Shown here: positions 12,356 to 51,617 of the stretch, piece after piece
How positions within the stretch are numbered: the stretch's first letter is position 1
How the letters are laid out: every line of letters starts with the position of its first letter
NCBI RefSeq assembly: GCF_900111945.1
Contig: NZ_FOYO01000001.1
Location: forward strand, 162,251 to 226,250
DNA: 64,000 nt
From: Litoreibacter janthinus
Lineage (GTDB): Bacteria; Pseudomonadota; Alphaproteobacteria; Rhodobacterales; Rhodobacteraceae
Direction of reading: 5' to 3'
Position numbers and translations under genes: made by a program
Notes under the pieces: generated by a model
Told to the model about the DNA's origin: nothing
The model's database searches: none
What the model saw: only the letters and a program-made list of their open reading frames with translations

Positions 12356-12370
12356 TGGCTGGGATGGTAG
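12356..12370. repeat. Putative attachment site (15-bp tRNA-Gln 3' end copy)
   Basis: TGGCTGGGATGGTAG, identical and in the same orientation as 51603-51617, where it is the last 15 nt (through CCA, on the minus strand) of the intact tRNA-Gln. Position 122 bases outside the first integrase arm box fits an att core. Family knowledge: P4-type integrases commonly use tRNA 3' ends. Confidence 0.6.
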
Positions 12371-12491
12371 CAGCCATTTCAAGATCCGATGTGATCTAAG
12401 ATATTCCATCATGGCCTTGCTTTATTAACATAAATGGTTCACCTCTGTTCCGAATAGAACCGAAGTACACCTGTGCATTCCCACATTTAAA

Positions 12492-12510
12492 GTGGGAACT
12501 ATTGTGGGGA
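12492..12510. promoter_or_regulatory. Putative integrase arm-type binding sites (left)
   Basis: GTGGGAA at 12492-12498 and GTGGGGA at 12504-12510, 12 bp apart on the plus strand, preceded by ATTTAAA. The matching pair at 51528-51546 has the same spacing and a similar flank (AATTAAAGTGGGAAC). Function inferred from position. Confidence 0.45.
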
Positions 12511-12527
12511 CGAATGGCGAGAACGTT

Positions 12528-13715
12528 ATGGCAAAGAGACTTACAGTCAAGTCGGTAGAGGCCGCCAAACCAGGGCGCTACAGCGACGGCGGTGGCCTAG
12601 GCCTGATGTTGCTGGTGAAAGACAACGGAAGCCGATTTTGGGTCCAGCGCCTGACGGTTCGCGGGCGTCGTCGCGACATCGGTTTGGGGTCATTCCCTGT
12701 GATTGGACTTTCGCATGCGCGGGATCAGGCACTGGAGAACAAACGGGCCGCCCAACGCGGCGAAGACCCGTTGGCGGACAAGCGCCGCGCCAAAGCGGCT
12801 GATTCCAAGCGGATGACATTTGCCGAAGCAGCAGAATCGGCCTGCATTGAACTGAAACCGGGATGGAAAAGTGCGAAGGAAGCCAAGGCGTTCATGTCGT
12901 CTCTGAGGACCCACATATTCCACCGCTTCGGTAATATGGACGTGAGTGATGTAACCAGCGCCGAGGTCCGCCGCGCTATACTAGATTGCCGCAACAAGGT
13001 GCCCAACTTGGCGACCAAAGTGCAGCACCGAATACTATCAGTTTTCAAGTTTGCCGTTGCTGAGGGGCTTCGAGCTGATAACCCAGCGACGGCTGAGGTG
13101 CTTGCGTTGCCTAAGCTAGAGAAGCGCGCCACACCTAACCGTGCGCTACCCTACTTCGAAGTCGCGGCGGCATTGGAAATTGTGAAAGCGTCAGCCGCAT
13201 GGGCTTCCACAAAGCTGGCAATAGAATTCGTTGCGCTGACGGCTTGTCGCTCTGGTGAGGTGCGCGGAGCTAGATGGGACGAAATCGATCTGGCAACCGC
13301 AACGTGGACCATCCCCGGCACGCGGATGAAGATGGGCCGCGAACACAAGGTTCCGCTTAGCTCGGAGGCGCTAGAAATTTTACACAAAGCCGCCACTCAA
13401 AGCGACGGCGCACTCGTTTTCCCCTCAGCCACAGGAAAGCAACTGTCAGACAACACCCTTTCGAAGTTATTGCGAGAACGGAAGGTCGCCAGCACAGTTC
13501 ATGGCCTGCGTGCCTCGTTTCGCACTTGGACGCAGGAACAAACAAATGTCTCTGAAGAGGTGGCAGAAGCCGCATTGGCACATATCAATAGCAATAAGAC
13601 CGTGGCTGCTTACGCGCGATCAGATCTTTTTGAAAAGCGCCGAACCCTGATGGAGGCATGGTCCACGTACCTGAGACGGTCGACAAACAATGTAATATCG
13701 ATCAGCGAGGTCTAA
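12528..13715 (+). CDS. P4-type tyrosine integrase
   Basis: 395 residues from ATG 12528; an upstream in-frame GTG (12492) is rejected because it lies in the arm-site boxes. The N-terminus is an Arm-DNA-binding (DUF4102-like) domain (LTVKSVEAAKPGRYSDGGGL, RRDIGLGSFPVIGLSHAR), followed by a SAM-like core-binding domain and a C-terminal catalytic domain with Arg in TACRSGEVRGARW, His-x-x-Arg in VHGLRASFRTW and the Tyr nucleophile in TVAAYARSDLFEKRR. By family it catalyses site-specific integration and excision, usually at tRNA 3' ends; the adjacent tRNA-Gln fragment fits. It is the first gene of a plus-strand run to 17442. Confidence 0.93.
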   Translation: MAKRLTVKSVEAAKPGRYSDGGGLGLMLLVKDNGSRFWVQRLTVRGRRRDIGLGSFPVIGLSHARDQALENKRAAQRGEDPLADKRRAKAADSKRMTFAEAAESACIELKPGWKSAKEAKAFMSSLRTHIFHRFGNMDVSDVTSAEVRRAILDCRNKVPNLATKVQHRILSVFKFAVAEGLRADNPATAEVLALPKLEKRATPNRALPYFEVAAALEIVKASAAWASTKLAIEFVALTACRSGEVRGARWDEIDLATATWTIPGTRMKMGREHKVPLSSEALEILHKAATQSDGALVFPSATGKQLSDNTLSKLLRERKVASTVHGLRASFRTWTQEQTNVSEEVAEAALAHINSNKTVAAYARSDLFEKRRTLMEAWSTYLRRSTNNVISISEV

Positions 13716-13716
13716 C

Positions 13717-14523
13717 TTGCCCCATCGCAAGACACCTAAAGAATTCAACAACCCAGGCTTTGACCTTGATTACCAACCGTATGACGCAGCCAAGTTCAGT
13801 CAGATTGTTAAGGAGGTCGGATTCTCAGCCGTGAGGTCGAGCGCTCAAGTGCGCGAAGAATGGCTATCTCGAATGAACAACTTAGCGATCCATTTGAAGT
13901 ATGATCTTGAGAACTCTTCTCGCCCGTCAAGATCTGGTGAGCGCGCCGAGCTAGAGAGTCTAACAAAAGCAACTAAGAAGCTTGTAAATTTATTGCCACT
14001 CCAATGGGATGAAGATGATGTTGAAATTCGAAACGAGCGTGAGCCTATTAAACCTAGCTCCAACGAGATGCGCTTACGCTCAAATCACAGAGTATCCGGA
14101 CATCTCGAACGTCTATTAAGCCCTCATTTAGAGAACGAAATTGAGAATAGGCCAAACGATCCAGACGGCATTCTAGATGAATTGATTAATACTGAGAATC
14201 CGCTCGATGCTCGCGAGATCTTGATTCTAGCCTCGGTCCTCACATCTTTCATCGCAAAGGCGAGCACCGCTGCAATCGAGGCTTTGCCGATCGACCCCGA
14301 AACAAGAGCACCGAGACCAGAACATGACTTTGTTATCGGTTTGGCGCGTCTTTACCCTGACATTTTCGGGCGGGACATTGGCATTTCGAATGCGAAAGGG
14401 AAACTAGGCGGGCCCTTGGTCCGGTTCATTAATGCTGCTTCAGCTTGTGTTAAAATCGACGTAACAGCTAGAAAAATACAAAGTTGGCTGACGAAAGATG
14501 GCCTGATCGGAACATCACAGTAG
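13717..14523 (+). CDS. Hypothetical protein of the integrative element
   Basis: 268 residues, TTG start one base after the integrase stop. No recognised domain. The protein is charged and mostly helical, with a middle segment rich in Asn/Glu/Pro (about 105-150) and no signal peptide or membrane segment. The position directly behind the integrase suggests expression with it. The base composition is more AT-rich than the integrase. Confidence 0.7.
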   Translation: MPHRKTPKEFNNPGFDLDYQPYDAAKFSQIVKEVGFSAVRSSAQVREEWLSRMNNLAIHLKYDLENSSRPSRSGERAELESLTKATKKLVNLLPLQWDEDDVEIRNEREPIKPSSNEMRLRSNHRVSGHLERLLSPHLENEIENRPNDPDGILDELINTENPLDAREILILASVLTSFIAKASTAAIEALPIDPETRAPRPEHDFVIGLARLYPDIFGRDIGISNAKGKLGGPLVRFINAASACVKIDVTARKIQSWLTKDGLIGTSQ

Positions 14524-14635
14524 TCTTGGCATTATTAGAAATTTTTTTTCCTGATAATGTAATATTTTATCCGCAGAGTTCTTATGCGAGCACTAGAGGT
14601 GCGCCCAGTACCGGGCGTAAAATCTGGAGCCCGAA

Positions 14636-14833
14636 ATGAGCAATGATCAAATACTTCGCCGACCAAAAGTCGAAAGCATCGTCGGGCTTTCGCGCTCGAC
14701 GATATACGAGCTAATGGCTCAAGGAAGTTTCCCTCGCCCAATCAAACTTGGCCCGCGCGCCGTCGGGTGGCGCGAAAGGGATGTTTTGGCGTGGCTCGCT
14801 GCGCGCCCCACAGCGGATCGCAATACTCAATAA
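14636..14833 (+). CDS. alpA: AlpA-family excisionase/regulator
   Basis: 65 residues with the classic AlpA/HTH_17 pattern: ILRRPKVESIVGLSRSTIYE, MAQGSFPRPIKLGPRAVGW, and RERDVLAWLAAR. AlpA proteins are small winged-helix regulators; in P4-like elements and phage-inducible islands they activate integrase expression or assist excision. The 112-base AT-rich gap upstream (with runs of T and A) probably holds its promoter. Confidence 0.9.
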   Translation: MSNDQILRRPKVESIVGLSRSTIYELMAQGSFPRPIKLGPRAVGWRERDVLAWLAARPTADRNTQ

Positions 14834-14929
14834 AAACACCCGCACCATGAAACAGAGGGCGCGGGCGCGGGATAGTCTATACAACTAAAATCCTATCGCA
14901 TCGGGCCTCGTAAATCAACGAGACTCACA

Positions 14930-15232
14930 ATGATCAAAGATAGAAATGGTGGCTACTCGGCCAATACCACGAAGTCGCCGCAACTCATTGAAATCACATT
15001 GGGCAAATACACAAAGCCTGAGCACAAAAGTGCAGCCCGAATGCTGGGGTATGTCCTAACATTGGGAACCAATAGCGCTTGGTGGCAGTTTGCAACTCTT
15101 GTCGGCATCAGGCTATCGCACGAAGAACGGGCGGCCCTGGCTTTCATGACGCTTAACGCGTTGGATAATGACGATGCGATTATCGTCGCAGATACAGCAC
15201 TTGGCCGCTTTCCGAGATCTAAGGTGGATTGA
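14930..15232 (+). CDS. Hypothetical protein upstream of DUF3631 ATPase
   Basis: 100 residues, no recognised domain. Its stop overlaps the start of the following ATPase gene (TGATG), which indicates translational coupling and a shared role. No signal peptide; it has a weakly hydrophobic patch (LGYVLTLGTNSAWWQFATL) that is probably core packing rather than a membrane segment. Confidence 0.7.
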   Translation: MIKDRNGGYSANTTKSPQLIEITLGKYTKPEHKSAARMLGYVLTLGTNSAWWQFATLVGIRLSHEERAALAFMTLNALDNDDAIIVADTALGRFPRSKVD

Positions 15233-16527
15233 TGGGCGACCCGTACACCGATTCATATTTCGACGGACCCGATCCAATCAGGGAATTCCAAGTTGAGCCA
15301 ACACTGGAAGAATTGACTAAGGAACTGGCTACTCTGACCCCACTTGAATATGATCAACGGCGCAATGCTTTTGCAAAAGAACATGAAATTCGTTTATCGA
15401 CGCTTGATGCGGAGGTTCAGAAGGCTCGCGATGTCCCCAGTACGGATGCCGAAAAATCTGCTCCGTTTGAAAACATTTTGCCATGGGATGAGCCGGTTCA
15501 CGGTGGGGAACTTCTCGACACCCTGCAATATACGGTAGAGCGTTTCTGCGTTCTGCCCGAGCACAGCGCCCCGATAATTGCCGCCTGGTGTGTCCACGCA
15601 TGGACACATGATGCGTCTGACATCAGCCCATTGCTGGCCTTTACGTCACCAGAAAAGCGCTGCGGAAAGTCAACCGCATTGTCGGTAGTGTCTGCACTGA
15701 CGCCGCGCGCCATGCACGCGGTTAACATCTCCGTGTCGGTTCTGTTTCGTGTCATTGAGAAACACAAACCAACCATCTTAATCGACGAAGCCGATACCTT
15801 TCTCGAAGACCGATCAGATATGCGAGGGATGATCAACGGTGGTCACAATCGCCGCACCGCCAATGTTTGGCGCTCCGTGGGAGACGATCACGAGGCAAAG
15901 CCGTTCCGGGTTTGGTCGCCCAAAGCCATTGCGATGATCGGCGACCTCCCGGATACTCTTGAAGACAGAGCCTTGGTGGTTCCCCTCATGCGCAAGGATG
16001 TTGGGGAGACTGTCGAACGATTCCCAGCCCGCCGTGATGAAGAGTTGCTTCCCTTACGGCGTAAGCTGGCACGATGGGCAGAGGACAACTGGATCGAACT
16101 CGCGGATCACGAACCAAATATTCCCGAAGAACTGAACGACAGGGCGCAAGACAACGCACGCTGCCTTTGCACCATAGCAGATGTGGTCGGCGGCCATTGG
16201 CCCCAGCGCATCCGTGAGGCACTAGTGGGGCTGGCGAAGGCACAATTAGACGATGTGCCCGCTTCCAAGGGCGTGTTGTTGTTACACGACATCGCCGACA
16301 TCCTAGAAAGATGGAGGGGGAACCGGATCACGAGCAACGATTTGGTCACAGAACTTGTAGCAATCGAGGAAGGTGCGTGGGCAGTCTGGAAAGGTGGCGA
16401 TCCGATAACGGCGCGAATGGTGGCCAGCTTGTTGAAACCTTATGGAGTTAAGCCGGAACGGGACCGTTCGTCACGTTTCTATGTTCTGGACGACCTGAGG
16501 GATGCCGTCGGGAGGTATGTCTCGTGA
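15232..16527 (+). CDS. DUF3631-type P-loop ATPase (replication helicase/primase-like)
   Basis: 431 residues from ATG 15232, preferred over the TTG three bases upstream because of the overlap with the preceding stop. Walker A-like SPEKRCGKSTALSVV, Walker B ILIDEADTFLED, and the DUF3631 signature KAIAMIGDLPDTLEDRALVV. DUF3631 proteins are found in phages, plasmids and integrative elements and are related to the helicase part of replication primases. No primase domain is fused here; a separate one is not visible in the window. The likely role is replication or maintenance of the element, inferred from family and neighbours. Confidence 0.82.
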   Translation: MGDPYTDSYFDGPDPIREFQVEPTLEELTKELATLTPLEYDQRRNAFAKEHEIRLSTLDAEVQKARDVPSTDAEKSAPFENILPWDEPVHGGELLDTLQYTVERFCVLPEHSAPIIAAWCVHAWTHDASDISPLLAFTSPEKRCGKSTALSVVSALTPRAMHAVNISVSVLFRVIEKHKPTILIDEADTFLEDRSDMRGMINGGHNRRTANVWRSVGDDHEAKPFRVWSPKAIAMIGDLPDTLEDRALVVPLMRKDVGETVERFPARRDEELLPLRRKLARWAEDNWIELADHEPNIPEELNDRAQDNARCLCTIADVVGGHWPQRIREALVGLAKAQLDDVPASKGVLLLHDIADILERWRGNRITSNDLVTELVAIEEGAWAVWKGGDPITARMVASLLKPYGVKPERDRSSRFYVLDDLRDAVGRYVS

Positions 16528-16956
16528 GGTCTCGACACCCGTCGCAAGCGTCACGCACGTCACATGTGACACCAAACTCCTCCGAAAACACTATGATTGA
16601 ACGGCCGTGTCGTATGTGACTCTTGTGACGCTATTCAGCGAGGCCTCACGGGAAAGTAATACCACTGACACGAGCACAGTATCAGATCGAGCTCCGCACC
16701 TTTGACCAAAGGAGAGATGAAAGCAGGTCAAAATCGAGACCTATGGCACTTCGCAGACTTACATGATCACGTCTAACAATCACGTAACAGCACAAATCGC
16801 ACGACCCGCGACTAGTGCCCCCAATTCTCTCCAAACTTAAAAGTGGACAGTTGAAGGAGCACGAACGCACCAAGAATTGACGTGTGTATCAAACCAAACT
16901 CAGGCCAACACCGTCATTTGAACTTGGCGGGCGGGTCAAATATGGAGATCCAATAA
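16528..16956. other. 429-base intergenic region with GTCACATGTGAC palindrome
   Basis: No gene called. It contains the perfect 12-bp palindrome GTCACATGTGAC at 16559-16570 and two further TGTGAC words near 16611-16628, a cluster that could be an operator or replication-initiator site. Function is not known. Confidence 0.4.
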
Positions 16957-17442
16957 TTGCCTCATGCCCGAAAACGCTCGAATATCGTTCCTTTAACCGC
17001 CGATCCGAGGTCAAAGAATGCGTTAAAATACTTAGGGGAGGAGCATTGCAACGTAGTCAAATCGATGGCTCGAAATGGTGAATTCCCCGAGCAGTGGTGC
17101 GCAAAGATGGGTGTTGCAATGTCAACCATGTTCAACTGGGCCGCGCGCTATCCGGAGTTTGACGAGGCCTGCCGCATAGCATGGACCGCACTGTCGGCAT
17201 ATTGGACCGGTGAATTGGTCAAAGCCGCACGTGGAAACAACTGCAACACAAGACTTCTTCTCGAACTCCTTCGTCGACGTTTTCCTGACACTTGGGGCTC
17301 CAATGCCAAAAATGGTGCCGATCACTTTATCTCATGTGTCGACGTGGCCCGCTCAACCAAGGTAGATCAACAGGACTACGATGACATGACGAGTGACGAA
17401 CTTATGGCTGAAATTGCTGCTCTGAGTGGCAAGTCAGGGTAG
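16957..17442 (+). CDS. Terminase small-subunit-like protein
   Basis: 161 residues, TTG start. The central region reads like small terminase subunits and related packaging adaptors: an N-terminal helix-turn-helix (EQWCAKMGVAMSTMFNWAAR, then YPEFDEACRIAWT) followed by NTRLLLELLRRRFPDTWG. No large terminase, portal or capsid gene is nearby, so it is not part of an intact phage. In phage satellites a stand-alone small terminase redirects helper packaging; that role is an inference from the integrase-AlpA-ATPase context. It could also be a simple DNA-binding regulator. Confidence 0.6.
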   Translation: MPHARKRSNIVPLTADPRSKNALKYLGEEHCNVVKSMARNGEFPEQWCAKMGVAMSTMFNWAARYPEFDEACRIAWTALSAYWTGELVKAARGNNCNTRLLLELLRRRFPDTWGSNAKNGADHFISCVDVARSTKVDQQDYDDMTSDELMAEIAALSGKSG

Positions 17443-17585
17443 CGATGATAGGCATGCCGATTAACTAAGTTCGGAATAAGTCGGACTTATCTTCCAAATA
17501 TCGTGTGGATAAATAGGACGTAAGCTTTCTTTAAATCTTCAATATTTATTAGATAACCAATAGTTAGGCGTCAGATTTAGTCAGT

Positions 17586-17942
17586 TTGTATTGGAGAGAA
17601 ACAGGGGCAATTTCGTTGAAGTTCTTTGCGTCTGACAGCCTGATCATACGGCAAGTGTTTGGGTCGCAGATTGCCTTGGTAATGCAGAAAAATGTCAAGA
17701 TTTTTGACATACCTGAGTTCATTGGCGCGGAGGCTTCAGGGCCGAAAACTATCGCGTGCATTGAAGATGAGGACATCGCGACGAAACCAAAGGATGGTAT
17801 CAATTGGTCGAGGATAAGGGATAGCATTGGGCGGAAAGCGGTCGTTCGCTGCGGGTGCCACCATGAGTCACTGACTTGGCCAAAGCAGACATCTAATCTG
17901 CGTGAAGCCGTATTAACGTGCGCCACGCAATTGTACGCGTAG
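17586..17942 (+). CDS. Hypothetical protein
   Basis: 118 residues, TTG start. No recognised domain. It overlaps the 3' end of the subtilase gene on the opposite strand by 30 bases, and a competing minus-strand frame (17564-17995) covers the same bases. The plus-strand translation has a balanced composition (alternating hydrophobic strands, TIACIEDEDIATKPKDGINW), which is why it is preferred. Low certainty. Confidence 0.35.
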   Translation: MYWRETGAISLKFFASDSLIIRQVFGSQIALVMQKNVKIFDIPEFIGAEASGPKTIACIEDEDIATKPKDGINWSRIRDSIGRKAVVRCGCHHESLTWPKQTSNLREAVLTCATQLYA

Positions 17943-20525
17943 CTGATCCTGAATTTCTGCCTGAATGTCGAACGAGGTCTCGTTTTCCAGTTCAATGGTT
18001 ACCGCTATTGCGAACCGAATATCATCGTCCTGGCTAAGCCCACCTCCGGACGCGTCCCGGCACTGCACGCGAATAGGAAGCACCTCATCATCCGCGTAGC
18101 GCGGAACCACTGGGCCGTTATGTTTGAGCCGACGCGACCAGACACTCCCTCGCCTGATTATGTTTGCATCAATATCGTTGGTTGATAGGTCGAGACCCCA
18201 CCCATCATCTTTTAAGGGGTCTCCCAGAAGGTCCTCTCCCATAGCAACTGCATCTAGCGCAGCCAGTCGGTATCGCGCCCTTGTTGGCAGCACTGGAGAG
18301 AACCAGGTGACGGTGACTCGCATGAACCGACCAATCCGCTCGCCAGACAGCGGCGCGGGCAACGGAACTTCGAAAGTTGCGGCCTGATCGCGGCGCACTG
18401 TGCCGACACCGACAAGTGTGGCACCCAGTGCGGGTGCTTCTGTCATTAGAAAATCATCGAGGACACCATGTCCGAAGTAGCGGCAAGTCTCTTCTCTCGC
18501 CTGTGCATGCCTTTGTGCGCCGATCCTTTGTTTCTCAGCTTCGAACATGTCCTTTGCCGGATCATTCCACCGCGAAGCGCTTACTGCCAGCGCTTTGGTA
18601 ATCAGCGCAAAATCACGCCGACCCAAGTCTTGATCTTCGAATGGACCGCCTTCTTCCTGCAAGGCAGCCGCGGCATTGAGATGCGCGCGCGCAACCAATG
18701 CATTGGCACAGCTTGTGCCGCGCGTTCGGTACATTGCAGCCGCCCCTGCACCTGCAGTCGCAACATTCAAACCAGTGCGCTGCGTACGCTCGACGACTTT
18801 AAGGCGTAGATGGCCTCCAGCTGGAAGCATGCGAATATTATGACGACCGCCAGTATGAATTAAATCAGGCTTGATGGACCGCATAGCGCCAAGTCCTGTA
18901 GCTGATGTGAGAGCAGGCAGTTGTTGCCCATTTTCCTCGAGCATGATTTCGCCGGCAGGCTCTGGGCCACGGGCATCGGCCAGATCGTGGGATGTTGCCC
19001 CAACCGTTAAAACGTTGATGGCCTCAGACGGTGCCATGAGTGTGCGCGTATGGCGCGCGCTTCGCTGCGCTTGGGCGACGAGCGCTTTGCGCTCCTCATG
19101 TGTTCCGTCCTCAAACGCCAGCGATGTTGTATTTGGAATGATAAGGTCATCAGGGACATTTCCGGCCGAGACAAGGAACAGAATGCCTTGTTGATCAGCC
19201 CACCAATCCAACAAACGCGCAAGCGAACTAATCCGGCCGGAAAACCCGGCTCCCTTCACACCTATTGAAAAATTGACGAGAAACGCATCGGGGGCTAAGG
19301 GCTCATCACCAAGAAACGCGCGAGCGAGGGCAATATGTACCACGTCGACGAATAATCTATCATCGGGTGAAGTTGCACTCTGTTCGTTGTCGATGAGAAC
19401 TGGGATCGACAGCAGGCGGCTCTCCCTGACGGGAGTGCCATCGGCTAACAGGTCACCTCTGAGAATAAGGGAAGCCATCGATGTCGCATGACGTCGGTGC
19501 TGAACTTGAGATAGGCCCACCAAGTCGTGGACGTCCTCTATGATCACGCCGCCATTAAGTGAAGGGTGACCGGCAATCGGCGTTCCATCCAACAATACGG
19601 CTTTGATAGGCGCACCTTCGTCAAAAGCTGGATACTGACGTTGATCTTGGTCGTCTTCGGCGGCTGAAGGATTAGGCAGTGACTGTGCTATGGTTTGCGG
19701 TAGGACAAATTGCAGGCCTTCGACTGTTGCCAAGCCATCCGGTGCAGATGGGTTTTCGATCATTTCTCGCACAGCGGCGGCGGGCATTTCGATCAGTGCT
19801 GCTTCATAAATGAAGCCGGTTGCATTGATGGATGAAGTTGAGATGACAACGCCACCTAGCGCTTCAACGCGAACTCTTGTGTCTTGCTGCCAGCGTGTTC
19901 TTTGGTCCCTGTTGGCAGTGGGCCAAATTTCCAATTCCAATCGAACTGGATCCTGATCGTCCATTGGAAGTCTCGCGATCAGCTCTGCCTGCGCGTTTGC
20001 CGTCAACCTGTCCCTTGGTCCCCACAATCGCAAATCCGCCAGCATTGCGAATACTCGGTACCAGGGAGCTAGCCCTCGTGGGGCCTTTTCATTCTTTTGG
20101 TAGCCGCGCCAGAGCTTCAAGAGCGCATTGAGGTCTCTTGTTGATGGCATGGTCGCATAGAGTGTCGGAGATGCGTTGTCGGCATACTCGTCTTCCAATG
20201 CCTCCGGTACGTCATAGTCATCGAGATTGGACTCGATCAACACTTCTAGCTGAATCTGGTCTGCAGCGCGTTTGAAATCAGCGATCGGAACGATCGTCTC
20301 AAACACAAGCGCCCGCTCCGGCGCGATTCCAGTTGGATCCTGACGCAACACAACATCGGCATCCTCGCCAGTCAGTGCTTCTTCCAAACGATCAAACTGC
20401 TCGCCGAAACGCGCACCTTGGCCTTGAGAACCGCCACCACGCGGTCGCGGTCGTTTATCTTGTCTGCCCGGAAGGCGAGTTTCGCGGCCAGCTTCAGGAA
20501 GCCGCAGGATCGGTCGATCTGTCAT
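17913..20525 (-). CDS. ietS: S8 subtilisin-like serine protease, IetS-like
   Basis: 870 residues from ATG 20525 (an in-frame TTG six bases upstream is less likely). The catalytic triad is readable: Asp313 in AVLLDGTPIAG, His346 in RRHATSMASL, Ser605 in TRGTSCANAL, with the oxyanion Asn in FLVSAGNVPDD. No signal peptide, so it acts in the cytosol. The ~300-residue N-terminal part precedes the protease domain and has no known domain; a C-terminal ~200-residue beta-rich part follows. It overlaps the upstream AAA ATPase gene by 32 bases. The AAA/subtilase pair matches IetAS, described in Agrobacterium plasmids as a toxin/antitoxin-like stability pair and reported as an anti-phage system; the symbol rests on that architecture, not on a search. 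Confidence 0.85.
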   Translation of the reverse strand: MTDRPILRLPEAGRETRLPGRQDKRPRPRGGGSQGQGARFGEQFDRLEEALTGEDADVVLRQDPTGIAPERALVFETIVPIADFKRAADQIQLEVLIESNLDDYDVPEALEDEYADNASPTLYATMPSTRDLNALLKLWRGYQKNEKAPRGLAPWYRVFAMLADLRLWGPRDRLTANAQAELIARLPMDDQDPVRLELEIWPTANRDQRTRWQQDTRVRVEALGGVVISTSSINATGFIYEAALIEMPAAAVREMIENPSAPDGLATVEGLQFVLPQTIAQSLPNPSAAEDDQDQRQYPAFDEGAPIKAVLLDGTPIAGHPSLNGGVIIEDVHDLVGLSQVQHRRHATSMASLILRGDLLADGTPVRESRLLSIPVLIDNEQSATSPDDRLFVDVVHIALARAFLGDEPLAPDAFLVNFSIGVKGAGFSGRISSLARLLDWWADQQGILFLVSAGNVPDDLIIPNTTSLAFEDGTHEERKALVAQAQRSARHTRTLMAPSEAINVLTVGATSHDLADARGPEPAGEIMLEENGQQLPALTSATGLGAMRSIKPDLIHTGGRHNIRMLPAGGHLRLKVVERTQRTGLNVATAGAGAAAMYRTRGTSCANALVARAHLNAAAALQEEGGPFEDQDLGRRDFALITKALAVSASRWNDPAKDMFEAEKQRIGAQRHAQAREETCRYFGHGVLDDFLMTEAPALGATLVGVGTVRRDQAATFEVPLPAPLSGERIGRFMRVTVTWFSPVLPTRARYRLAALDAVAMGEDLLGDPLKDDGWGLDLSTNDIDANIIRRGSVWSRRLKHNGPVVPRYADDEVLPIRVQCRDASGGGLSQDDDIRFAIAVTIELENETSFDIQAEIQDQLRVQLRGAR

Positions 20526-21507: not shown

Positions 21508-21653
21508 TGAAATCCGTTCGTTTACGTCCGCCAGTGGACAAATCACATAAAAGAAGTATAGTCGGATTCATGAAATTGTCACCCGATATTTCCGATACTT
21601 AACCGATTTCGCAAATTTTTGACCGATCAATGCTCTCTTGAGGCGAATCCGAT

Positions 21654-24466: not shown

Positions 24467-24479
24467 TGGCCCAACTCTC

Positions 24480-35169: not shown

Positions 35170-35180
35170 GAGGTATCTTT

Positions 35181-37054: not shown

Positions 37055-37227
37055 CGAGATCCAGATATGCTCACCCGTAGCAAGCAGCGAAATACTCAAT
37101 TTTGCTGATCAAAAGGGCAATGCCACTAATGAAACGCAAGCAAGCCAAGGAGCCCTAACGAAGCTAGGCATGAATGCAGGCACGCATTGAATCGTTGTTG
37201 GATTTCGTTTAAGTTGGAGGACGCCGT

Positions 37228-42886: not shown

Positions 42887-42945
42887 CCGGTGTCATCCCT
42901 TTTGTTGACCGCCCAGGTTTGAACAAGCAGTCGACGTTTAACGCG

Positions 42946-44127: not shown

Positions 44128-44188
44128 CGGACCCTCGCTTCAAATCTGACTGACTGTTCAGCTATATTACGGCACTGTATGTGTGGCA

Positions 44189-44202
44189 TTGAGCCAAATC
44201 AA
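44189..44202. promoter_or_regulatory. FNR/FnrL-like box between cytochrome and nqrA
   Basis: TTGAGCCAAATCAA matches the FNR consensus TTGAT-N4-ATCAA at 9 of 10 positions. It lies 61 bases upstream of the cytochrome ATG and 51 bases upstream of the nqrA ATG, so it could control either or both. Suggests oxygen-dependent expression. Confidence 0.45.
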
Positions 44203-44252
44203 ATCGGGAGCCCTTTTTTCCTGTTAGGCTGCCGATGGCGCGGGGAGAGATA

Positions 44253-45521
44253 ATGCGGATTCTCAGGTTTGGTTCAGGTTTGAATCCGTCGTTTCCGTCA
44301 CCGCCACTGCGTGATTTGAAACCGGTTGAGATCATCACCCAAGAGGCCGCAATACGCGCGTCATCTGGTCAGACACTTCGCATCGATACACTGGTGCGCG
44401 AAAACGACGATGTCCCGCAGGGCGCACCTGTCGCCTGCCTGCGGGACGCTCCGGACGTGAAATTCGTGGCTCCGATGGCCGGACGTATTGCACGGATAAA
44501 GCTTCAGCCTGGGCGCAAACTGACTGAAATCGTGATATTTCGTGAAGAAGGCGAGGTGGTTCGCCATGATATCAGCAATGCGGCCGAGAAAATGGGTCTG
44601 CGGCGTCTAATGCAAAACTCCGGCATTTGGCCCCTTCTGCGACGGCGGCCATTCGGCGGAATGCCGACACCGGATGAAACCCCCGCGGCGATCCTTGTTA
44701 TGGCTTTGGACACCCGCCCCTACGCACCCGATCCGCGACAGGCCCTTCAGGGGCGCGAAGCAGCCTTTGAACGCGGCCTTCTGGCGCTGTCCCTGCTATG
44801 TGACGGCGAAATTTTCGTGTGCCAAGCCTCAGGTCCAACACTGCTCCAGCGCGCTTCAGGTCGCGGCAAAATCCGTGCGGTAGAGTGTACGGACCGCCAT
44901 CCGCATGGCTCGGCTGGACTATGCAGTCATGGCCTTGCTCCGGCGACGATCGAAACGCCGGTTTGGGACATTCACGCCGAAGACGTTGCCGCACTTGGCG
45001 ATCTTGTGATGACAGGAATACTGCCAATGAAACAGCTGGTGCAGATCGACGGAGAGGGCCTAAAGGAAAGCCGACTGGTGAGAACACAACCCGGTGCCGA
45101 TCTACGTGAACTGACGCTGCGGGCAGCCGCCCACGGTGCGCACGCCCTGATGTCCGGTTCGCCGTTGGACGGGCACGAAGCACATTGGCTTGCGCCGCGT
45201 CACAGGCAAGTGACAGTTCTGCCCCGCGGTTCAAATTCAGCATCGCCACATTGGTTTACCGCGGCGCTCACCCGATCCAGCCTTCCCAAACCGGTGATCC
45301 CGACGGCGGCGCTCAGGCAGGCGTTTGGAGTAGCCTTGCCCGCTGTCGCGCTGGTGCGGGCATTAAGTTCGGGTGATGACGAACTGGCGATGAAGCTTGG
45401 CGCGCTTTCCCTGCTTGAAGAGGATTTAGGGCTAGCCGATTATGTCCTCGGCGGCGAGGCCCATTTGGCCGTGCTGTTGCGCCGAATGCTGGACCGCGTT
45501 CAAACGGAATTCGCGCCATGA
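44253..45521 (+). CDS. nqrA: Na+-NQR subunit A
   Basis: 422 residues from ATG 44253, preceded by GGGGAGAG (an in-frame ATG at 44235 would place this site inside the gene). NqrA-like: barrel-sandwich region VRENDDVPQGAPVACLRDAP, FVAPMAGRIARIKLQPGRKL and TEIVIFREEGEVV. No 4Fe-4S cysteines, which argues against RnfC. Slightly shorter and divergent compared with the ~446-residue NqrA of Vibrio. By family it is the cytoplasmic quinone-site subunit of the Na+-translocating NADH:quinone reductase. First of nine tightly packed genes. Confidence 0.88.
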   Translation: MRILRFGSGLNPSFPSPPLRDLKPVEIITQEAAIRASSGQTLRIDTLVRENDDVPQGAPVACLRDAPDVKFVAPMAGRIARIKLQPGRKLTEIVIFREEGEVVRHDISNAAEKMGLRRLMQNSGIWPLLRRRPFGGMPTPDETPAAILVMALDTRPYAPDPRQALQGREAAFERGLLALSLLCDGEIFVCQASGPTLLQRASGRGKIRAVECTDRHPHGSAGLCSHGLAPATIETPVWDIHAEDVAALGDLVMTGILPMKQLVQIDGEGLKESRLVRTQPGADLRELTLRAAAHGAHALMSGSPLDGHEAHWLAPRHRQVTVLPRGSNSASPHWFTAALTRSSLPKPVIPTAALRQAFGVALPAVALVRALSSGDDELAMKLGALSLLEEDLGLADYVLGGEAHLAVLLRRMLDRVQTEFAP

Positions 45522-46300
45522 TGAAAGGGCTGTGGGATCGCGAAACGACTGCGTTGATGCTGCTGGCCGCCTATATGCCACTGGCCCTGTTCTGGCTTTG
45601 GTATGGCGGTTCGCAGGCGCTAGCAGGTCTTGGGCTTGCCATGTTGTGTCTGACTGTCTGGAACCTCGTTTTTATGCTGGCCCGCGCCCAGCCCCCGTCA
45701 TTTGCGGCGATAATTACAGCTTTGGCTTTCGCGATGCTCGCTCCCGAAGAACTCGGGGCGTTCAGGCTGGTGTTGGGGCTCAGTTTTGGGGCGGTGATGG
45801 GGGAACTCGTTTTTGGAGGCTGGGGGCGAAACGTCGTCAATCCGGCGACCGTGGCGCTGTCATTTCTTGGTTTCGGGTTTCAGGGTTTTGACTGGCCCGT
45901 CTTTGATGTTCCGGTCGTTTGGGCCGCTATTCCGGCCGCAGTCATCGGGGTCGCGACAGGTGTGATGCCTGCGGCTGTCATTCTGGGTGCAGTGGCCTTA
46001 GGAGTGGTGGCACTGGCTTTGGGCGCGCCCATCGATGCCGCGCTCCCTGCCGCTGGTGTTGTTCTTGTCCTTCTGGTCGCTGATCCGGTGACAAGTGCGG
46101 CAACCACGCTTGGCCGTTGGTTAAACGGCATGGTCTATGGCGGGCTTGTAATCATGTTTGCAACCGGTTGGACCGGGGCCGCGCCAGTTCAAATCGCAGT
46201 TGCAGCGGCGCTTTTGGCCTCACTGGCCGCGCCGCTTTTGGATGAAATTGCGGTCAATCTCTGGATCGTACAACGCAGGAGGCGACATGGCCGGAACTGA
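45518..46300 (+). CDS. nqrB: Na+-NQR subunit B, short form
   Basis: 260 residues, overlapping nqrA by 4 bases. Membrane protein with about eight hydrophobic segments. NqrB/RnfD landmarks: GELVFGGWGRNVVNPATVAL and, near the end, LLVADPVTSAATTLGRWLNG (matching the ATDPVSAS..GKW region). Typical NqrB is ~410 residues; this one lacks ~100 N-terminal residues and the periplasmic loop with the D-x-x-S/T-G-A-T motif whose Thr carries covalent FMN. SAAT in the second landmark is not in that position. NqrC, NqrD, NqrE and NqrF keep their cofactor residues, so the complex is likely real but modified. Confidence 0.85.
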   Translation: MMKGLWDRETTALMLLAAYMPLALFWLWYGGSQALAGLGLAMLCLTVWNLVFMLARAQPPSFAAIITALAFAMLAPEELGAFRLVLGLSFGAVMGELVFGGWGRNVVNPATVALSFLGFGFQGFDWPVFDVPVVWAAIPAAVIGVATGVMPAAVILGAVALGVVALALGAPIDAALPAAGVVLVLLVADPVTSAATTLGRWLNGMVYGGLVIMFATGWTGAAPVQIAVAAALLASLAAPLLDEIAVNLWIVQRRRRHGRN

Positions 46301-47081
46301 CTGGAATCCTTGGCGTCGCCTATTGGCACTGCCGAATACAAGCCGCACCAAGACAATCGTCGTGGCGTTCTTGGTATCGGCCATTTGTGCTGTGCTGGTA
46401 AGCGGCGCCACCGTTCTTTTGCGGCCTATACAAACTGCAAACCGCGCGGCAGAGGAACAGGCGCGGATCGCAGATCTTGTGCAACGGATTCCTGGAATGT
46501 CCGCCCTGTTGGAACAAGCAGGCGGAACGCTGTCGACGGTTGTGATCGACCTAGAAAGTGGCCGCGCGGCGACGGACATTTCGACCGAAACACTCGAAAC
46601 CGCACTTGCCGATCAGGCGAATTGGACAGCGCTAGAGGCCGGATCAGACCTTGCTGGCCTTGGCTACCGGCCCAATTATGCGCAGATATTTCTGCTGCGC
46701 GACGGCGATACCATCCTTTTGGCGCTCCTGCCGGTTGCTGGACAAGGGTATGGCGGACGCATTGATGCAATCGTCGCTGTGAATGGCGACATGAACACCA
46801 TCGCAGGGATCGCGATTACCCAACATTCAGAAACCCCTGGTCTTGGCGCGCGTATCGAAGACCGGTCGTGGCAGGGCAGTTTCCCCGGCACGCTGATCCG
46901 TGACCCAAGTGGGCAAATCCGGTTCAATGTGGCGCGGTCCACCGCAAGCACGGATTATCAGGTCGATGGCATCACTGGCGCGACCCGTACTGGCAACGGC
47001 ATCACGAACATGATGCGGTTCTGGTTGGGGCCGGACGGTTATGGCCCGCTGATCGGCGCAATCCAACGGGGGGAGTTCTAG
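46287..47081 (+). CDS. nqrC: Na+-NQR subunit C
   Basis: 264 residues from ATG 46287 (site AGGAGGCGAC), overlapping nqrB by 14 bases. One N-terminal membrane anchor (TIVVAFLVSAICAVLVSGA) and a periplasmic FMN-binding domain with HSETPGLGARIEDRSWQGSF and the ApbE target motif DGITGATRTGNG; Thr233 is the predicted covalent-FMN residue. Normal length for NqrC. Confidence 0.93.
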   Translation: MAGTDWNPWRRLLALPNTSRTKTIVVAFLVSAICAVLVSGATVLLRPIQTANRAAEEQARIADLVQRIPGMSALLEQAGGTLSTVVIDLESGRAATDISTETLETALADQANWTALEAGSDLAGLGYRPNYAQIFLLRDGDTILLALLPVAGQGYGGRIDAIVAVNGDMNTIAGIAITQHSETPGLGARIEDRSWQGSFPGTLIRDPSGQIRFNVARSTASTDYQVDGITGATRTGNGITNMMRFWLGPDGYGPLIGAIQRGEF

Positions 47082-47084
47082 CCG

Positions 47085-47750
47085 ATGACGTCGCGCACCT
47101 CTTTCTGGACGACATTGACCGATCCGCTGATCCGGCAAAATCCGGTGACACTGCAAATCCTTGGAATATGTTCGGCACTGGCGGTGACGACGACACTGGC
47201 CACGGCTGTGACAATGTCGGTTTCGCTGACAGTTGTTCTGACGCTGGCGGCAGGGATCATCAGTGTCATTCGCAGGCACATCCCCGACACAATCCGGCTG
47301 ATTGTTCAGATCGTGATTGTGGCGTCGCTGGTGATCGTGATCGACCAAATTTTGCAGGCATATTTTGCCGATATCAGTCGCGCATTGTCGGTTTATGTCG
47401 GGCTTATTACAACGAACTGTCTGGTTCTTGGCCGCACCGAAGCCTACGCGCGATACCATGCGCCGTTGCCGTCAATGGTCGATGCATTTGGCAACGGGCT
47501 TGGCTATTCGTTCGTTTTGATCGTGATCGGAACGATCCGAGAGTTGTTCGGTCAGGGACAGTTGTTCGGTGCCCAAGTGCTACCGCTTGCTGATGAAGGC
47601 GGCTGGTTCACGCCGCTTGGCATGATGCTGCTGGCACCTTCGGCCTTCTTTCTTTTGGGCGGCCTTGTTTGGGTCGTGCGGTCCGTGTGGTCAGAACAAG
47701 CCGAACCGCCCGAGCATTCGCCCCCCTTGCGACCGGAGCCCGTAGAATGA
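47085..47750 (+). CDS. nqrD: Na+-NQR subunit D
   Basis: 221 residues, six membrane segments. Cys29 in LQILGICSALAVTT and Cys112 in GLITTNCLVLGRTEAYA are at the positions that hold half of the intramembrane iron-sulfur site shared with NqrE. NPVTLQ and GTIRELFGQG are typical. The C-terminal tail of ~20 residues is Pro/Glu-rich and longer than usual. Confidence 0.93.
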   Translation: MTSRTSFWTTLTDPLIRQNPVTLQILGICSALAVTTTLATAVTMSVSLTVVLTLAAGIISVIRRHIPDTIRLIVQIVIVASLVIVIDQILQAYFADISRALSVYVGLITTNCLVLGRTEAYARYHAPLPSMVDAFGNGLGYSFVLIVIGTIRELFGQGQLFGAQVLPLADEGGWFTPLGMMLLAPSAFFLLGGLVWVVRSVWSEQAEPPEHSPPLRPEPVE

Positions 47751-48361
47751 ACGACGCCTGGTCCTTTTTCCTGTTTGCCGCCTTCATCGACAACATGCCC
47801 CTGACGTTGTTCTTGGGCCTGTGCACGTTCCTTGCGCTGTCGCGTCGGACCGAAAGCGCGATTGGTCTTGGCATTGCGATGATCGGCGTTCTGGGGGTGA
47901 CGGTGCCGCTGAATAATCTGATCTATAAGGGATTGCTTGCTCCAGGCGCTTGGGCTTGGGCCGGACAGCCTGATCTTGATTTGTCGTATCTGGCACTGAT
48001 TGCTTTTATCGGCGTGATCGCCGCAACTGTGCAGCTCTTGGAGATGCTGCTTGATCGGTATTTCCCTGCCATTCACTCAGCGTTTGGCGTGTTCCTACCG
48101 CTGTTGACGGTGCAATGCGCGATCCTGGCCGGAAGCCTTTTCATGGTTGAACGTCAGTACACGCTGACAGAATCCGCAGTTTTTGGTGTGGGCAGTGGCG
48201 TTGGGTTTGCCGTGGCAGTTATTATGCTTAGCGCGATCCGCGCACGCCTGTCCTATGCCGACTTACCTGCAGGGCTGCGGGGGCTTGGCATCGCGTTCAT
48301 TCTTACGGGGCTGATGTCTTTGGGCTTTGCCTCTTTCGCTCAAATGGCGGCGTCGCCATGA
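47747..48361 (+). CDS. nqrE: Na+-NQR subunit E
   Basis: 204 residues from ATG 47747, which overlaps the nqrD stop (ATGA). Six membrane segments; Cys26 in LFLGLCTFLAL and Cys124 in LPLLTVQCAILAGSLF complete the NqrD/NqrE iron-sulfur site. FIDNMPLTLFLG replaces the common N-terminal ENM-type motif. Normal family length. Confidence 0.92.
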   Translation: MNDAWSFFLFAAFIDNMPLTLFLGLCTFLALSRRTESAIGLGIAMIGVLGVTVPLNNLIYKGLLAPGAWAWAGQPDLDLSYLALIAFIGVIAATVQLLEMLLDRYFPAIHSAFGVFLPLLTVQCAILAGSLFMVERQYTLTESAVFGVGSGVGFAVAVIMLSAIRARLSYADLPAGLRGLGIAFILTGLMSLGFASFAQMAASP

Positions 48362-49581
48362 ATGAAATCGTACTTGGCAGCATGGTCATCGCCCTCCTCG
48401 TCGTCGGCTTGGCGATCGGCCTTTTGGTCGCGCGGAGCAGATTGGTGCCAAGCGGGACCATTATGGTGTCGGTTAACGACATCCCACCCATTGTGGCACA
48501 AAGGGGCGCAAAGCTTCTGGGTGTCTTGCACGACGCCGACATTCGCATTCCCGCTGCCTGCGGTGGATCGGGTACCTGTGGGCTATGTCGTGTGACTGTG
48601 TCAGGCGAAGGTGCCGGAGAACCGCAAGCGACCGAGCGCGGGGTTCTTTCCCCAAAGGAAAGGCGCGACCATGTTCGCCTTGCTTGCCAGACAACATTGC
48701 GGGGCGATTGCGCGGTGCAGGTGGCCGACGATATCCTCAGCGCGGGCGGCGGCGTTGTGTGTTCCGTCGCATCCAGCCGGATGCTTGCGCCGCTTATTCG
48801 CGAGATCGTTCTTGATTTACCCAAAGATCATTCATCGGCCTTTCGGGCTGGCGATTTTATGCAAATCACCGCACCAGCCTATGAGCTCGACTTTGCATCG
48901 TTTGACGTAGACGCGCGGTTTGCCGACGTCTGGGACATCAATCGGTGGAACAGCTTGACCGTTAGGTCTGAAACCGATGTCACCCGCGCTTATTCGCTCG
49001 CCAGTCGCCCCGAAGACATCGGGCGTGCGGTGTTTAATATCCGTCTTGCCGTGCCACCTGCGGGGCGCGAAGCGGATGTGCTGCCAGGGCTGGTGTCGTC
49101 GTGGCTGTTTTCGCTCAAGCCGGGCGATCTGGTCAACGTATCGGGGCCGTTCGGGGACTTCCACGTTCAACCGACAAAGCGCGACATGGTCTTTGTCGGG
49201 GGCGGCGTGGGCATGGCACCATTACGTTCGATGATCCATCAGGAACTCGGGCGCGGCACGACGCGGCGCATCCAGTATTTCTATGGCGCGCGTGCTGCGG
49301 CCGATATGTTCTACGCGGATGAATTCGAAGACCTCGCGGCAAAGTTCGAGACTTTTAGTTGGACCCCGGCCCTATCGGACCCCGCACCGGGCGACCGATG
49401 GACCGGCGAGACTGGTTTCATCCATGAGACAGTCAAGACGGTATTGGGCGCACATTCCGCACCCGAGGATTGCGAATACTATTTGTGCGGTCCGCCAGTG
49501 ATGATCTCAGCCGTTCTGGGCACACTGGAACGGCTCGGCGTCGAACGGAGTTCGATTTTCTACGATGATTTTGGAGGCTAA
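48358..49581 (+). CDS. nqrF: Na+-NQR subunit F (NADH dehydrogenase)
   Basis: 407 residues, overlapping nqrE by 4 bases. N-terminal membrane anchor (VLGSMVIALLVVGLAIGLLV); 2Fe-2S domain with Cys68, Cys74, Cys77 (ACGGSGTCGLC) and Cys110 (RLACQT); FAD-binding TRAYSLASRP; NADH-binding FVGGGVGMAPLRSMIHQELG; C-terminal YLCGPPVM and YDDFGG. Complete electron-entry subunit. Confidence 0.95.
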   Translation: MNEIVLGSMVIALLVVGLAIGLLVARSRLVPSGTIMVSVNDIPPIVAQRGAKLLGVLHDADIRIPAACGGSGTCGLCRVTVSGEGAGEPQATERGVLSPKERRDHVRLACQTTLRGDCAVQVADDILSAGGGVVCSVASSRMLAPLIREIVLDLPKDHSSAFRAGDFMQITAPAYELDFASFDVDARFADVWDINRWNSLTVRSETDVTRAYSLASRPEDIGRAVFNIRLAVPPAGREADVLPGLVSSWLFSLKPGDLVNVSGPFGDFHVQPTKRDMVFVGGGVGMAPLRSMIHQELGRGTTRRIQYFYGARAAADMFYADEFEDLAAKFETFSWTPALSDPAPGDRWTGETGFIHETVKTVLGAHSAPEDCEYYLCGPPVMISAVLGTLERLGVERSSIFYDDFGG

Positions 49582-49584
49582 GAA

Positions 49585-50562
49585 ATGACAAACAGCGCCC
49601 TACGCCCGACTCGTCGCAATGCCCTCGGCATGATCGGGGCAACAATCGTCTTGCCGCAAATTGCGCAGGCCGCAACAACGCAAAGCATAGAAGGCGCAGC
49701 ATTCGGAACGACATGGCAGTTGGTCGCGTCGCATCATGATGACCTTGAACGCCTGCGGGCAGACATTGACGCGTTGTTCGCTATAATTGATCAACAAATG
49801 TCGCCGTGGCGTTCAGACAGCGACATCAGCCGGTTCAATACGATGGGCGCAGGTCGGCATCGCGCAGATCCAGAGATGATCCTAGTTACGACGGCAGCGC
49901 TGGACCTTGCGAAGGCAAGTCATGGTGCATTTGATCCCACGGTCGGCCCCCTTGTTGCGCGGTGGGGATTTGGGCCAATCCTCGGTAGCCCTACCGCGGA
50001 TTGGCGCGGGCTTTCAGTTGGCAGTGGTGACATCGGCAAAACCCACGACGACCTTACGCTGGATTTGTGCGGAATCGCCAAAGGCCGCGCCCTCGACCTC
50101 GCCGTTGATCTGGTTAAGGCCCGCGGCGTCGATAATTTCTTGTTCGATGTGGGTGGGGAGCTAAAGGCTGTTGGGCAGCATCCTGCGGGTCGATCGTTTC
50201 AGGTCGCGGTGCAACACCCCGCGGCAGGCCAGCCTGCCCCAGCCACCCTCAAGCTTGCCGATGGTATGGCCGTGGCAACATCGGGACTGCGCACGCAGAG
50301 CTATGAACTCGCGGACAACACGTATGGGCACATCATCGACCCCAGAACGCGTGCGCCTGCCAAGAGTCACCTTTTGTCGGTCACGGTCATGGGACGGGAT
50401 GCAATGATAGCGGACGGCTGGGCGACAGCGCTGTTCGCGGCAGGCCTGTCAAGCGGTCCAGACCTCGCCCAAAGCAAGAATATTGATGCCTTTTTTCTTA
50501 CTGGAGAAGGCGCTGGAATCTCGTCTGTAAGAACCGGCGCGATAGAGGGAGCGTTGTTATGA
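49585..50562 (+). CDS. apbE: FAD:protein FMN transferase
   Basis: 325 residues. N-terminus with RRNALGMIGATIVLPQIAQA, a Tat-like or Sec signal. ApbE features: EGAAFGTTWQLVAS, DQQMSPWRSDSDISRFN, LDLCGIAKGRALDLA, DVGGELKAVG, and a C-terminal ATSGLRTQSYELADNTYGHI with IIDPRTRAPA. It attaches FMN to Thr in the periplasm; NqrC here carries the target motif. 3 bases after nqrF. Confidence 0.93.
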   Translation: MTNSALRPTRRNALGMIGATIVLPQIAQAATTQSIEGAAFGTTWQLVASHHDDLERLRADIDALFAIIDQQMSPWRSDSDISRFNTMGAGRHRADPEMILVTTAALDLAKASHGAFDPTVGPLVARWGFGPILGSPTADWRGLSVGSGDIGKTHDDLTLDLCGIAKGRALDLAVDLVKARGVDNFLFDVGGELKAVGQHPAGRSFQVAVQHPAAGQPAPATLKLADGMAVATSGLRTQSYELADNTYGHIIDPRTRAPAKSHLLSVTVMGRDAMIADGWATALFAAGLSSGPDLAQSKNIDAFFLTGEGAGISSVRTGAIEGALL

Positions 50563-50741
50563 TGGAGCTCTTGATTTCAATTTTTGTCTTCGGGCTTGCG
50601 GCAGCTGGGCTTGGGCTGGGGCTTACCTTTGGGCGTGGACCAGTGCGCACCAGTTGTGGAGCTGCGGCTGGTTTGAAAAACGATCGCTGTTTGGACTGTC
50701 CTTTGCGCCGAAACACCGCAGCGGAAAGGGCAGAGCAATGA
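50559..50741 (+). CDS. nqrM: NqrM-like maturation protein
   Basis: 60 residues, overlapping apbE by 4 bases. One membrane segment (LLISIFVFGLAAAGLGLGLT) and then Cys33, Cys44 and Cys47 (TSCGAAAG, DRCLDCPLRR). Size, layout and position match NqrM (DUF539), which is needed to insert the iron-sulfur site in NqrD/NqrE. The Cys spacing is not identical to that of Vibrio. Confidence 0.8.
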   Translation: MMELLISIFVFGLAAAGLGLGLTFGRGPVRTSCGAAAGLKNDRCLDCPLRRNTAAERAEQ

Positions 50742-51130
50742 TCGAGCACCGGATCACATCGATCATGCGGCGCGACGTCCAGACACTTGCGCCAGAAACA
50801 CCGATACGGCAGGCGATCTCCATTCTGCTCGAAGCACGCGCAGCCGCCGCACCCGTGCTGGGCGAAGACGGACAACTCGTCGGCATTTTGACCCAGAAGG
50901 ACTGCTTCCGTCCTGCCTTGCACGCAAGTTATCATCAGGAATGGACTGGCAGCGTGGACGATCAAATGTCTCTGAACGTCATTACCGTTTATGCAAGCGA
51001 CGACGTGATCCGCGTCGCAGAAATGTTCTTGTCCCACTCACACCGTGTCTTTCCGGTCTTGGAGGGAACCCAAGTCATTGGGATGGCGCATCGCTCTGAT
51101 GTGCTCACATTCATGTTGCGAGAGGGATAA
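50738..51130 (+). CDS. Tandem CBS-domain protein
   Basis: 130 residues from ATG 50738, overlapping nqrM by 4 bases. Two CBS units: TSIMRRDVQTLAPETPIRQA to VGILTQKDCF, and MSLNVITVYASDDVIRVAEM to VIGMAHRSDVL. CBS pairs bind adenosyl nucleotides and tune the activity of partners. Ninth gene of the nqr operon; a role in regulating NQR according to nucleotide level is an inference from the coupling. Confidence 0.88.
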   Translation: MIEHRITSIMRRDVQTLAPETPIRQAISILLEARAAAAPVLGEDGQLVGILTQKDCFRPALHASYHQEWTGSVDDQMSLNVITVYASDDVIRVAEMFLSHSHRVFPVLEGTQVIGMAHRSDVLTFMLREG

Positions 51131-51602
51131 ACTTGACCGCCGCGGCTTGCGCAAAGCCGACGTCGGGCACCAAGAAGTGTTGAGCATCGCGAAAGGTTAG
51201 CTAAGTGTGAGGGTCCGCTTTGGAGATACCGCACCACAGCTTATGTGGTTGCGATGAGCGGCAGCTTTAGGCACGAAGCACCAGTTGGCATCAAAAACCC
51301 CAAGGTCTGCAAAGTCCGCATAGCGGACATCGAACCTGCAAGAATACTACTCGATCGATCAATGTCCGGTCTGGGAGAGCTGCGCCGCGGCATTGCAATG
51401 GAGACGGCATGTCCGGTATTTGGGCCGTTAGCAGTCGGTCATCGTTTTCTAAAGTGTGACCCCACTAGCCAGCGAGTCCATCAGATCAACAAATTCCATC
51501 TGACTGAAAACGACCCATTTTCCGAAAGTGGGAATTAAAGTGGGAACACCCTTCATAACATTTAGTTAAATCGTTATAAATCAATGACGTGAGCGGAAAG
51601 TA
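51131..51602. repeat. Intergenic region with dispersed repeat and right-end integrase sites
   Basis: About 51140-51440 carries repeat words (GTCTGCAAAGTCCGCATAGC, AATGTCCGGTCTGGGAGAGC, TGCGCCGCGGCATTGCAATG, GTCCGGTATTTGGGCCG). A 6-bp stem CGGCTT/AAGCCG at 51143-51159 follows the CBS gene but has no T-run. From 51460 the sequence changes to the arm-site region described separately. No gene seen. Confidence 0.5.
51528..51546. promoter_or_regulatory. Putative integrase arm-type binding sites (right)
   Basis: GTGGGAA at 51528-51534 and again at 51540-51546, 12 bp apart, in the same orientation and spacing as the pair at 12492-12510. Lies 57 bases inside the tRNA-Gln att copy. Confidence 0.45.
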
Positions 51603-51617
51603 TGGCTGGGATGGTAG
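51603..51617. repeat. Putative attachment site at tRNA-Gln 3' end
   Basis: TGGCTGGGATGGTAG, identical to 12356-12370, formed by the last 15 nt of the minus-strand tRNA-Gln including CCA. Confidence 0.6.

Follow-up and report, generated by a model that had tools for sequence, protein, structure and literature searches.

A window of 64,000 nucleotides of Litoreibacter janthinus DNA (contig NZ_FOYO01000001.1, positions 162,251 to 226,250) was analysed, and its positions 12356-51617 are read, with a probability of roughly 0.9, as one integrative element. This genomic island lies at a tRNA-Gln gene and comprises a P4-type integrase gene (int), paired boxes regarded as arm sites, a gene of the AlpA family, and cargo concerned with defence, metals, a nitrilase and a Na+-translocating NADH:quinone oxidoreductase (NQR). 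The arrangement of both ends, found again in homologous elements of other genera, gives good support to integration by the P4-type integrase at the 3' end of tRNA-Gln.

Ends of the element and their attachment layout

The features on which the delimitation is based are the following:

12356-12376, plus strand: left (tRNA-distal) attachment junction, with the 15-bp core in TGGCTGG-GATGGTA-GCAGCCA and a predicted 7-bp overlap at 12363-12369
12492-12510, plus strand: left box pair GTGGGAACTATTGTGGGGA, putative integrase arm sites upstream of int
12528-13715, plus strand: P4-type tyrosine integrase, 395 aa, with matches to Arm-DNA-bind_3, Phage_int_M and Phage_integrase; start placed by comparison with the homologous locus L091
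51528-51546, plus strand: right box pair GTGGGAATTAAAGTGGGAA, putative integrase arm sites
51603-51617, plus strand: right attachment core, equal to the tRNA-Gln 3' end, with a predicted overlap at 51610-51616
51603-51677, minus strand: tRNA-Gln (TTG), the intact target gene (ARAGORN, Rfam)

The 15-mer TGGCTGGGATGGTAG is present on the same strand at 12356-12370 and 51603-51617, and these are its sole copies in the window at up to two mismatches, against a chance expectation of 0.07 (mean of 100 shuffles of the window). With core starts separated by 39,247 bp, the element measures 39.2 kb. An intact tRNA-Gln was called on the minus strand by ARAGORN, and Rfam gave a tRNA match at 51606-51677; the right 15-mer is thus the 3' end of this gene, with its CCA encoded. 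The positions and direct orientation that an earlier note on this DNA had given for the two copies, the right one ending an intact tRNA-Gln, were confirmed. The same note had named a nearer third copy, ending a smaller element, as a finding that would overturn its proposal; a smaller element of this kind was rejected, as the window search (up to two mismatches) found no 15-mer between the two ends.

The left copy runs on into CAGCCA, so that inverted arms flank a 7-bp middle, while the tRNA-side copy holds the left arm and the middle only. The missing right arm is expected if that arm belongs to the other end of the element. This structure suggests that crossover takes place within the GATGGTA middle, and an exchange segment of 7 bp is described as typical of tyrosine integrases in section 19 of PMC10111431.

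Just inside each end lies a box pair of the form GTGGGRA-N5-GTGGGRA with a period of 12 bp. Even with one mismatch allowed, these are the only such pairs in the window, where 0.02 were expected; across the whole genome (3.75 Mb, four contigs) the exact pair occurs twice, both times at the element ends, and the reversed control pattern does not occur. Similar flanks accompany one box of each pair, namely ATTTAAAGTGGGAAC on the first box of the left pair and AATTAAAGTGGGAAC on the second box of the right pair, just as the earlier note had described, and an inverted TTCCCAC box directly precedes the left pair. Measured from the core centre, the pair centres lie at -76 and +135. A chance origin of the 15-mer and the boxes was rejected on the basis of the shuffles, the window expectation and the genome-wide counts.

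The mechanically called open reading frame (ORF) of int starts at GTG 12492, inside the first box. L091, a metagenome-assembled genome locus whose integrase is the closest relative (76% identical), favours ATG 12528 as the start codon, which puts the left boxes upstream of int. The P4-type integrase reported earlier at the left pair is therefore retained, its start at 12492 is not. Its reading frame and three domains are complete, and it carries R, H-x-x-R and Y residues which we take to be catalytic.

On these features, the integrase would recombine the core of the circular form (attP) with the tRNA-Gln 3' end inside the 7-bp overlap GATGGTA, which would keep the tRNA intact at one junction and leave a 15-bp copy at the other. 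The paired boxes on both sides of the core would serve as arm sites to which the integrase binds, and the AlpA-family factor encoded behind int would probably direct excision.

Recurrence of the layout in other genera

The layout was searched for by two routes. In the core-first test, the core was read upstream of int in six genomes carrying homologous elements (G240, G217, G021, G169, G145, G093), and each genome was searched with a degenerate pattern yielding 3 to 15 matches. In all six, an identical core is repeated in the same orientation 7.6-19.9 kb past int. This second copy lies where an intact tRNA gene has its 3' end, tRNA-Ser (GCT) in four and tRNA-Arg (CCG) in two, and int occupies the end away from the tRNA. 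The form of the core is alike and its letters differ, as in TGGCGGA-GACGAAG-TCCGCCA, the left part of which is the tRNA-Ser 3' end; G021 and G217 have an imperfect right arm.

A weight matrix for the boxes was built from the int-side pairs of 20 other loci (of 22 candidates, L083 and L084 being under the score threshold), excluding the window and the six test elements, and was run across the 400 bp inside the tRNA-side end. The best site fell at the same offset (-76) in all seven tRNA-side ends, and the number of shuffles out of 500 that reached its score was 5 for the window, 68 for G240, 4 for G021 and 0 for each of G217, G169, G145 and G093. With box strings set by hand after the strict-pattern and matrix tests, pair centres lie -76 or -77 from the core centre in 7/7 cases, and +122 to +144 (mean 133) on the other side.

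In the box-first test, 12 further genomes were searched for the box pair with at most one mismatch, which gave 38 matches compared with 9 for the reversed control, and none in G207. Eight of the 38 are int-side pairs, six others were fetched, and 24 lie outside the comparison. The fetched matches comprise five second copies near int and in the same orientation (G033, G118, G094, G151 and G091) and a single one in G185, at a distance of 362 kb. For all six, 76-78 bp separate the match from the 3' end of a tRNA-Ser gene, and the first four have a core in common with the stretch upstream of int.

The six homologous elements of the core-first test thus have the core form, box layout and int position of the L. 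janthinus element, and five of them contain AlpA, while they differ from it in length, in their tRNA-Ser or tRNA-Arg targets and in their cargo. Among weaker integrase homologues (L088-L090, L109, L115), tRNA-Ser lies just upstream of int. In total, the layout of an inverted core with doubled boxes near -76 and +133 led, in ten other genera, to a second end which lies at a tRNA and has the same core. The proposal in the earlier note that both ends belong to one element, with the order arms, core, arms, integrase, was borne out in that this layout predicted the ends of homologous elements.

The tRNA-Gln site in the genus and competing explanations

Comparison with the genus relied on the 14 of 20 congeners with a usable left flank; those left out were G009 and G011 (tRNA 75 bp from the contig end), G012 and G018 (335 and 57 bp) and G010 and G019 (no full-length match). 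One feature outside the element is central here:

10148-12213, plus strand: DUF2924 gene and serine recombinase gene, homologues of which abut tRNA-Gln in four relatives

In these relatives (G001, G016, G004 and G006, 4/14) the pair is 44-57% identical to that of the window, and between the end of the recombinase match and the core there are 197-245 bp, compared with about 184 bp here. Removal of 12356-51602 would give the window their arrangement. No integrase match (E <= 1e-6) was found in the fetched flanks of the 14 congeners. The earlier suggestion to look for an empty site in relatives was therefore answered in part: the gene order was found, an exact empty tRNA-Gln allele was not, in any of the 14.

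NqrF (E <= 1e-80) was detected in one of 21 genus genomes, the present one, and in 1/18 of those at least 90% complete, three of the 20 others being below that level; in the family, it was matched (E <= 1e-90) in 104 of 394 genomes. Relatives bearing nqr at this place but no integrase, which had been named beforehand as a refutation, did not appear, NqrF not being found in the 20 congeners at the former threshold. Together with the right box pair and core lying between nqr and the tRNA, this upholds the claim that the element carries nqr, and nqr as a native neighbour of tRNA-Gln is unsupported in the genus.

The left flank of the element is itself accessory DNA and not core chromosome. A third exact 15-mer is present outside the window, at -10356, and the element is accordingly one unit of a stacked tRNA-Gln region. 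Extended stretches of DNA similar to congeners are met again to the left of about -32.4 kb (as seen in G013 and G007), for which reason the whole accessory region may span about 84 kb, the element being its tRNA-side unit. A leftmost core near -32.4 kb, which an origin of the entire stack by insertion at the tRNA would predict, was not found at up to three mismatches. Repeated cores beside tRNA-Gln also occur in the congeners G002, G007 and G017.

Several results weigh against a single integrative element. The strict box pattern detected the tRNA-side pair only in the window and three of the six other elements, and the matrix score was not significant in G240 (68/500) and moderate in the window (5/500). 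For G091 and G185, the search detected no core in common with the stretch upstream of int, and for L091 it detected the int-side core only, the far end not being found. The support from relatives consists of gene order across species distance, with no exact empty allele or same-species empty site. Finally, G+C content is about 0.58 in the nqr part but about 0.51 over much of the stretch at 13-30 kb, which marks the cargo as composite. This last point would also fit a fixed remnant, in which the bounds are right, the integration is old, cargo was gained stepwise and the element no longer excises. Such a remnant, to which we give somewhat less than an even chance, agrees with a length two to five times that of the six homologous elements and with the finding that parts of the stretch at 28.9-33.2 kb and parts of the tyrosine recombinase pair recur in the left neighbour, but the complete int frame with its three domains, the AlpA gene, the two exact cores and the two box pairs speak against it.

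Other partitions of the region appear less probable. The third core at -10356 and the repeated cores of the three congeners could indicate that a larger unit from -10356 to 51617 (about 62 kb) moves together, or that units of the stack leave in varying combinations. This is unlikely, as the element has both its own ends, and the -10356 core is devoid of the predicted arm sites of this integrase, given that the exact box pair is found in the genome only at 12492 and 51528. That two neighbours have been joined, an element ending before about 41 kb and a native chromosomal nqr block beside the tRNA, is highly improbable. The G+C content of nqr is close to that of the right flank, and the nqr module is conserved in other genera, but NqrF was not found in the 20 congeners searched, the right box pair and core stand at the predicted distance between nqr and the tRNA, and no further 15-mer at up to two mismatches intervenes between the two ends.

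Further observations were made on the stacked region. An inverted copy of the DUF1330 stretch is found in the left neighbour (window 28906-29660 and 63 to -690, 94% over 758 bp) and runs straight into the sequence following 33092 (window 33092-33236 and -682 to -826, 89% over 145 bp), with about 9 bp of shared sequence at the joint (TTGAGCCCA); the 3.4-kb nitrilase module is hence absent from that copy. The left neighbour also holds a 351-bp inverted remnant of the tyrosine recombinase pair (window 36978-37312 and -4082 to -4432, 80% identical); in G016, at a distance of 18 kb from tRNA-Gln, there is a 68% identical homologue of the second recombinase. About 2.6 kb separate inverted cores beside tRNA-Gln in L026 (G007, 16453-19046) and L034 (G017, reversed, 14598-17197), and a pair of comparably sized genes (DUF5906 and HNH_3 in G007) has opposite orientations in the two congeners, so this stretch may be an invertible segment. 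The stretch GCCGGACAAGTTGCGATTC is found just before the core beside tRNA-Gln in L029, L030, L032 and L039 (G013, G005, G003, G012). Contigs start 75 bp before the tRNA-Gln match in G009:C19 and G011:C5, where repeated element ends might lie.

Gene content, known systems and significance

The genes behind int and the cargo modules are listed below:

13717-14523, plus strand: 268-aa protein directly behind int, family unknown, no match in profile scans
14636-14833, plus strand: AlpA-family protein, predicted excision factor (Phage_AlpA, E 1.4e-18 at 14648-14797)
15229-16527, plus strand: DUF3631 protein (profile match), possibly a replication gene
16957-17442, plus strand: 161-aa protein with a weak terminase-small-subunit match (phrog_309, E 2.4e-7; no Pfam match)
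17913-21546, minus strand: defence pair IetS (subtilase) and IetA (AAA ATPase), by profile matches
23081-23902, minus strand: HNH protein matching type IV restriction models (profile matches)
24480-28805, minus strand: TPR-CHAT protein, 1441 aa (profile match)
29274-32793, no strand assigned: DUF1330 gene and nitrilase module (HxlR regulator, acyl-CoA dehydrogenase-like protein, carbon-nitrogen hydrolase)
33705-35606, no strand assigned: metal module (cation efflux, transglutaminase-like, MerR regulator)
36062-38652, plus strand: two further tyrosine recombinase genes (profile matches)
41714-51130, no strand assigned: cation/proton exchanger, multihaem cytochrome c, nqrABCDEF-like genes, apbE, CBS protein

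The element would thus bring defence, metal, nitrilase and Na+-NQR-type modules to a tRNA which it shares with other accessory DNA. All seven loci fetched from other genera (out of the 104 genomes with an NqrF match) have the cytochrome, nqrA-F, apbE and CBS genes in one group, and four of these loci have the exchanger gene as well. The NqrB-like protein (45518-46300, 260 aa) aligns only to part (114-208) of the 406-413-residue NqrB models, and copies of similar length, beside the multihaem cytochrome gene, were seen in 7/7 other genera examined; the module may encode a variant NQR complex. Between the cargo modules lie three of the four genome copies of a 25-nt motif, GTGAANGGCAGNTNNGGGCCGTNCT (28970, 33013 and 38748, up to two mismatches), the fourth (G000:C1:1104412) being separated by about 18 kb from another P4-type integrase gene, the second in the genome to be noted here. 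A 47-nt repeat around the nitrilase module was traced to a dispersed motif only, with four copies, and was set aside.

The element is a further instance of an already known island type. Many tRNA islands have int beside the tRNA. With tRNA-targeted islands bearing P4-type (Arm-DNA-bind_3) integrases it shares the integrase domains, the direct repeats of a tRNA 3' end, here with the intact gene at one side, a site-specific recombinase of its own at one end, and cargo absent from relatives, but its int lies away from the tRNA and its cargo includes an NQR module. Pfam scans of 33 element ORFs, which covered those of at least 100 aa together with AlpA, found no relaxase or conjugation family, the genes by which integrative conjugative or mobilizable elements are defined, and no primase family, the DUF3631 protein being the only candidate. 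According to PMC8224337, tRNA-Gln is among the tRNA genes used by Rhodobacteraceae prophages.

A closer likeness in geometry is offered by phage-inducible chromosomal islands (PICIs). PMC10111431, the only paper returned when the literature was searched for such a motif, describes a doubled motif which helper-embedded PICIs carry in two co-oriented copies, -81/+132 from the attP centre, and reports it as not found in other PICIs; a period of 12 was counted from the motif string printed there. The element resembles these islands in its doubled co-oriented motif on both sides of attP (-76/+135) and in int and AlpA genes that both point inward, an orientation asked of PICIs in the same paper, where AlpA relatives are termed recombination directionality factors or excisionases. 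It differs in the letters of the motif, in targeting a tRNA and not prophage late genes, and in size, since 39.2 kb exceeds the 10-20 kb range given there for Gram-negative PICIs. Because of this misfit in size, and with helper use hypothetical, it is classified as a tRNA island integrating like a PICI and not as a PICI. The island may be active at present and may be transferred by a helper. A bolder proposal, which we consider improbable, is that a PICI-like backbone (int, AlpA, replication-type and terminase-like genes, doubled-arm attP) has expanded to form a metabolic island of 39 kb which a helper phage still excises and packages.

A whole NQR-type respiratory module is thus located on a tRNA island which also bears phage defence, in a genus in which the 20 other genomes searched yielded no NqrF match. 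If the satellite proposal were true, such a module, with NQR, flavin transferase and multihaem cytochrome, would pass from one bacterium to another as the cargo of a satellite. That helper-embedded PICIs have a similar spacing with a different motif sequence suggests that P4-type integrases share a general geometry of arm sites. Since it located ends in ten genera, the attachment layout can help to bound islands of this integrase clade, which have int at the end opposite to the tRNA.

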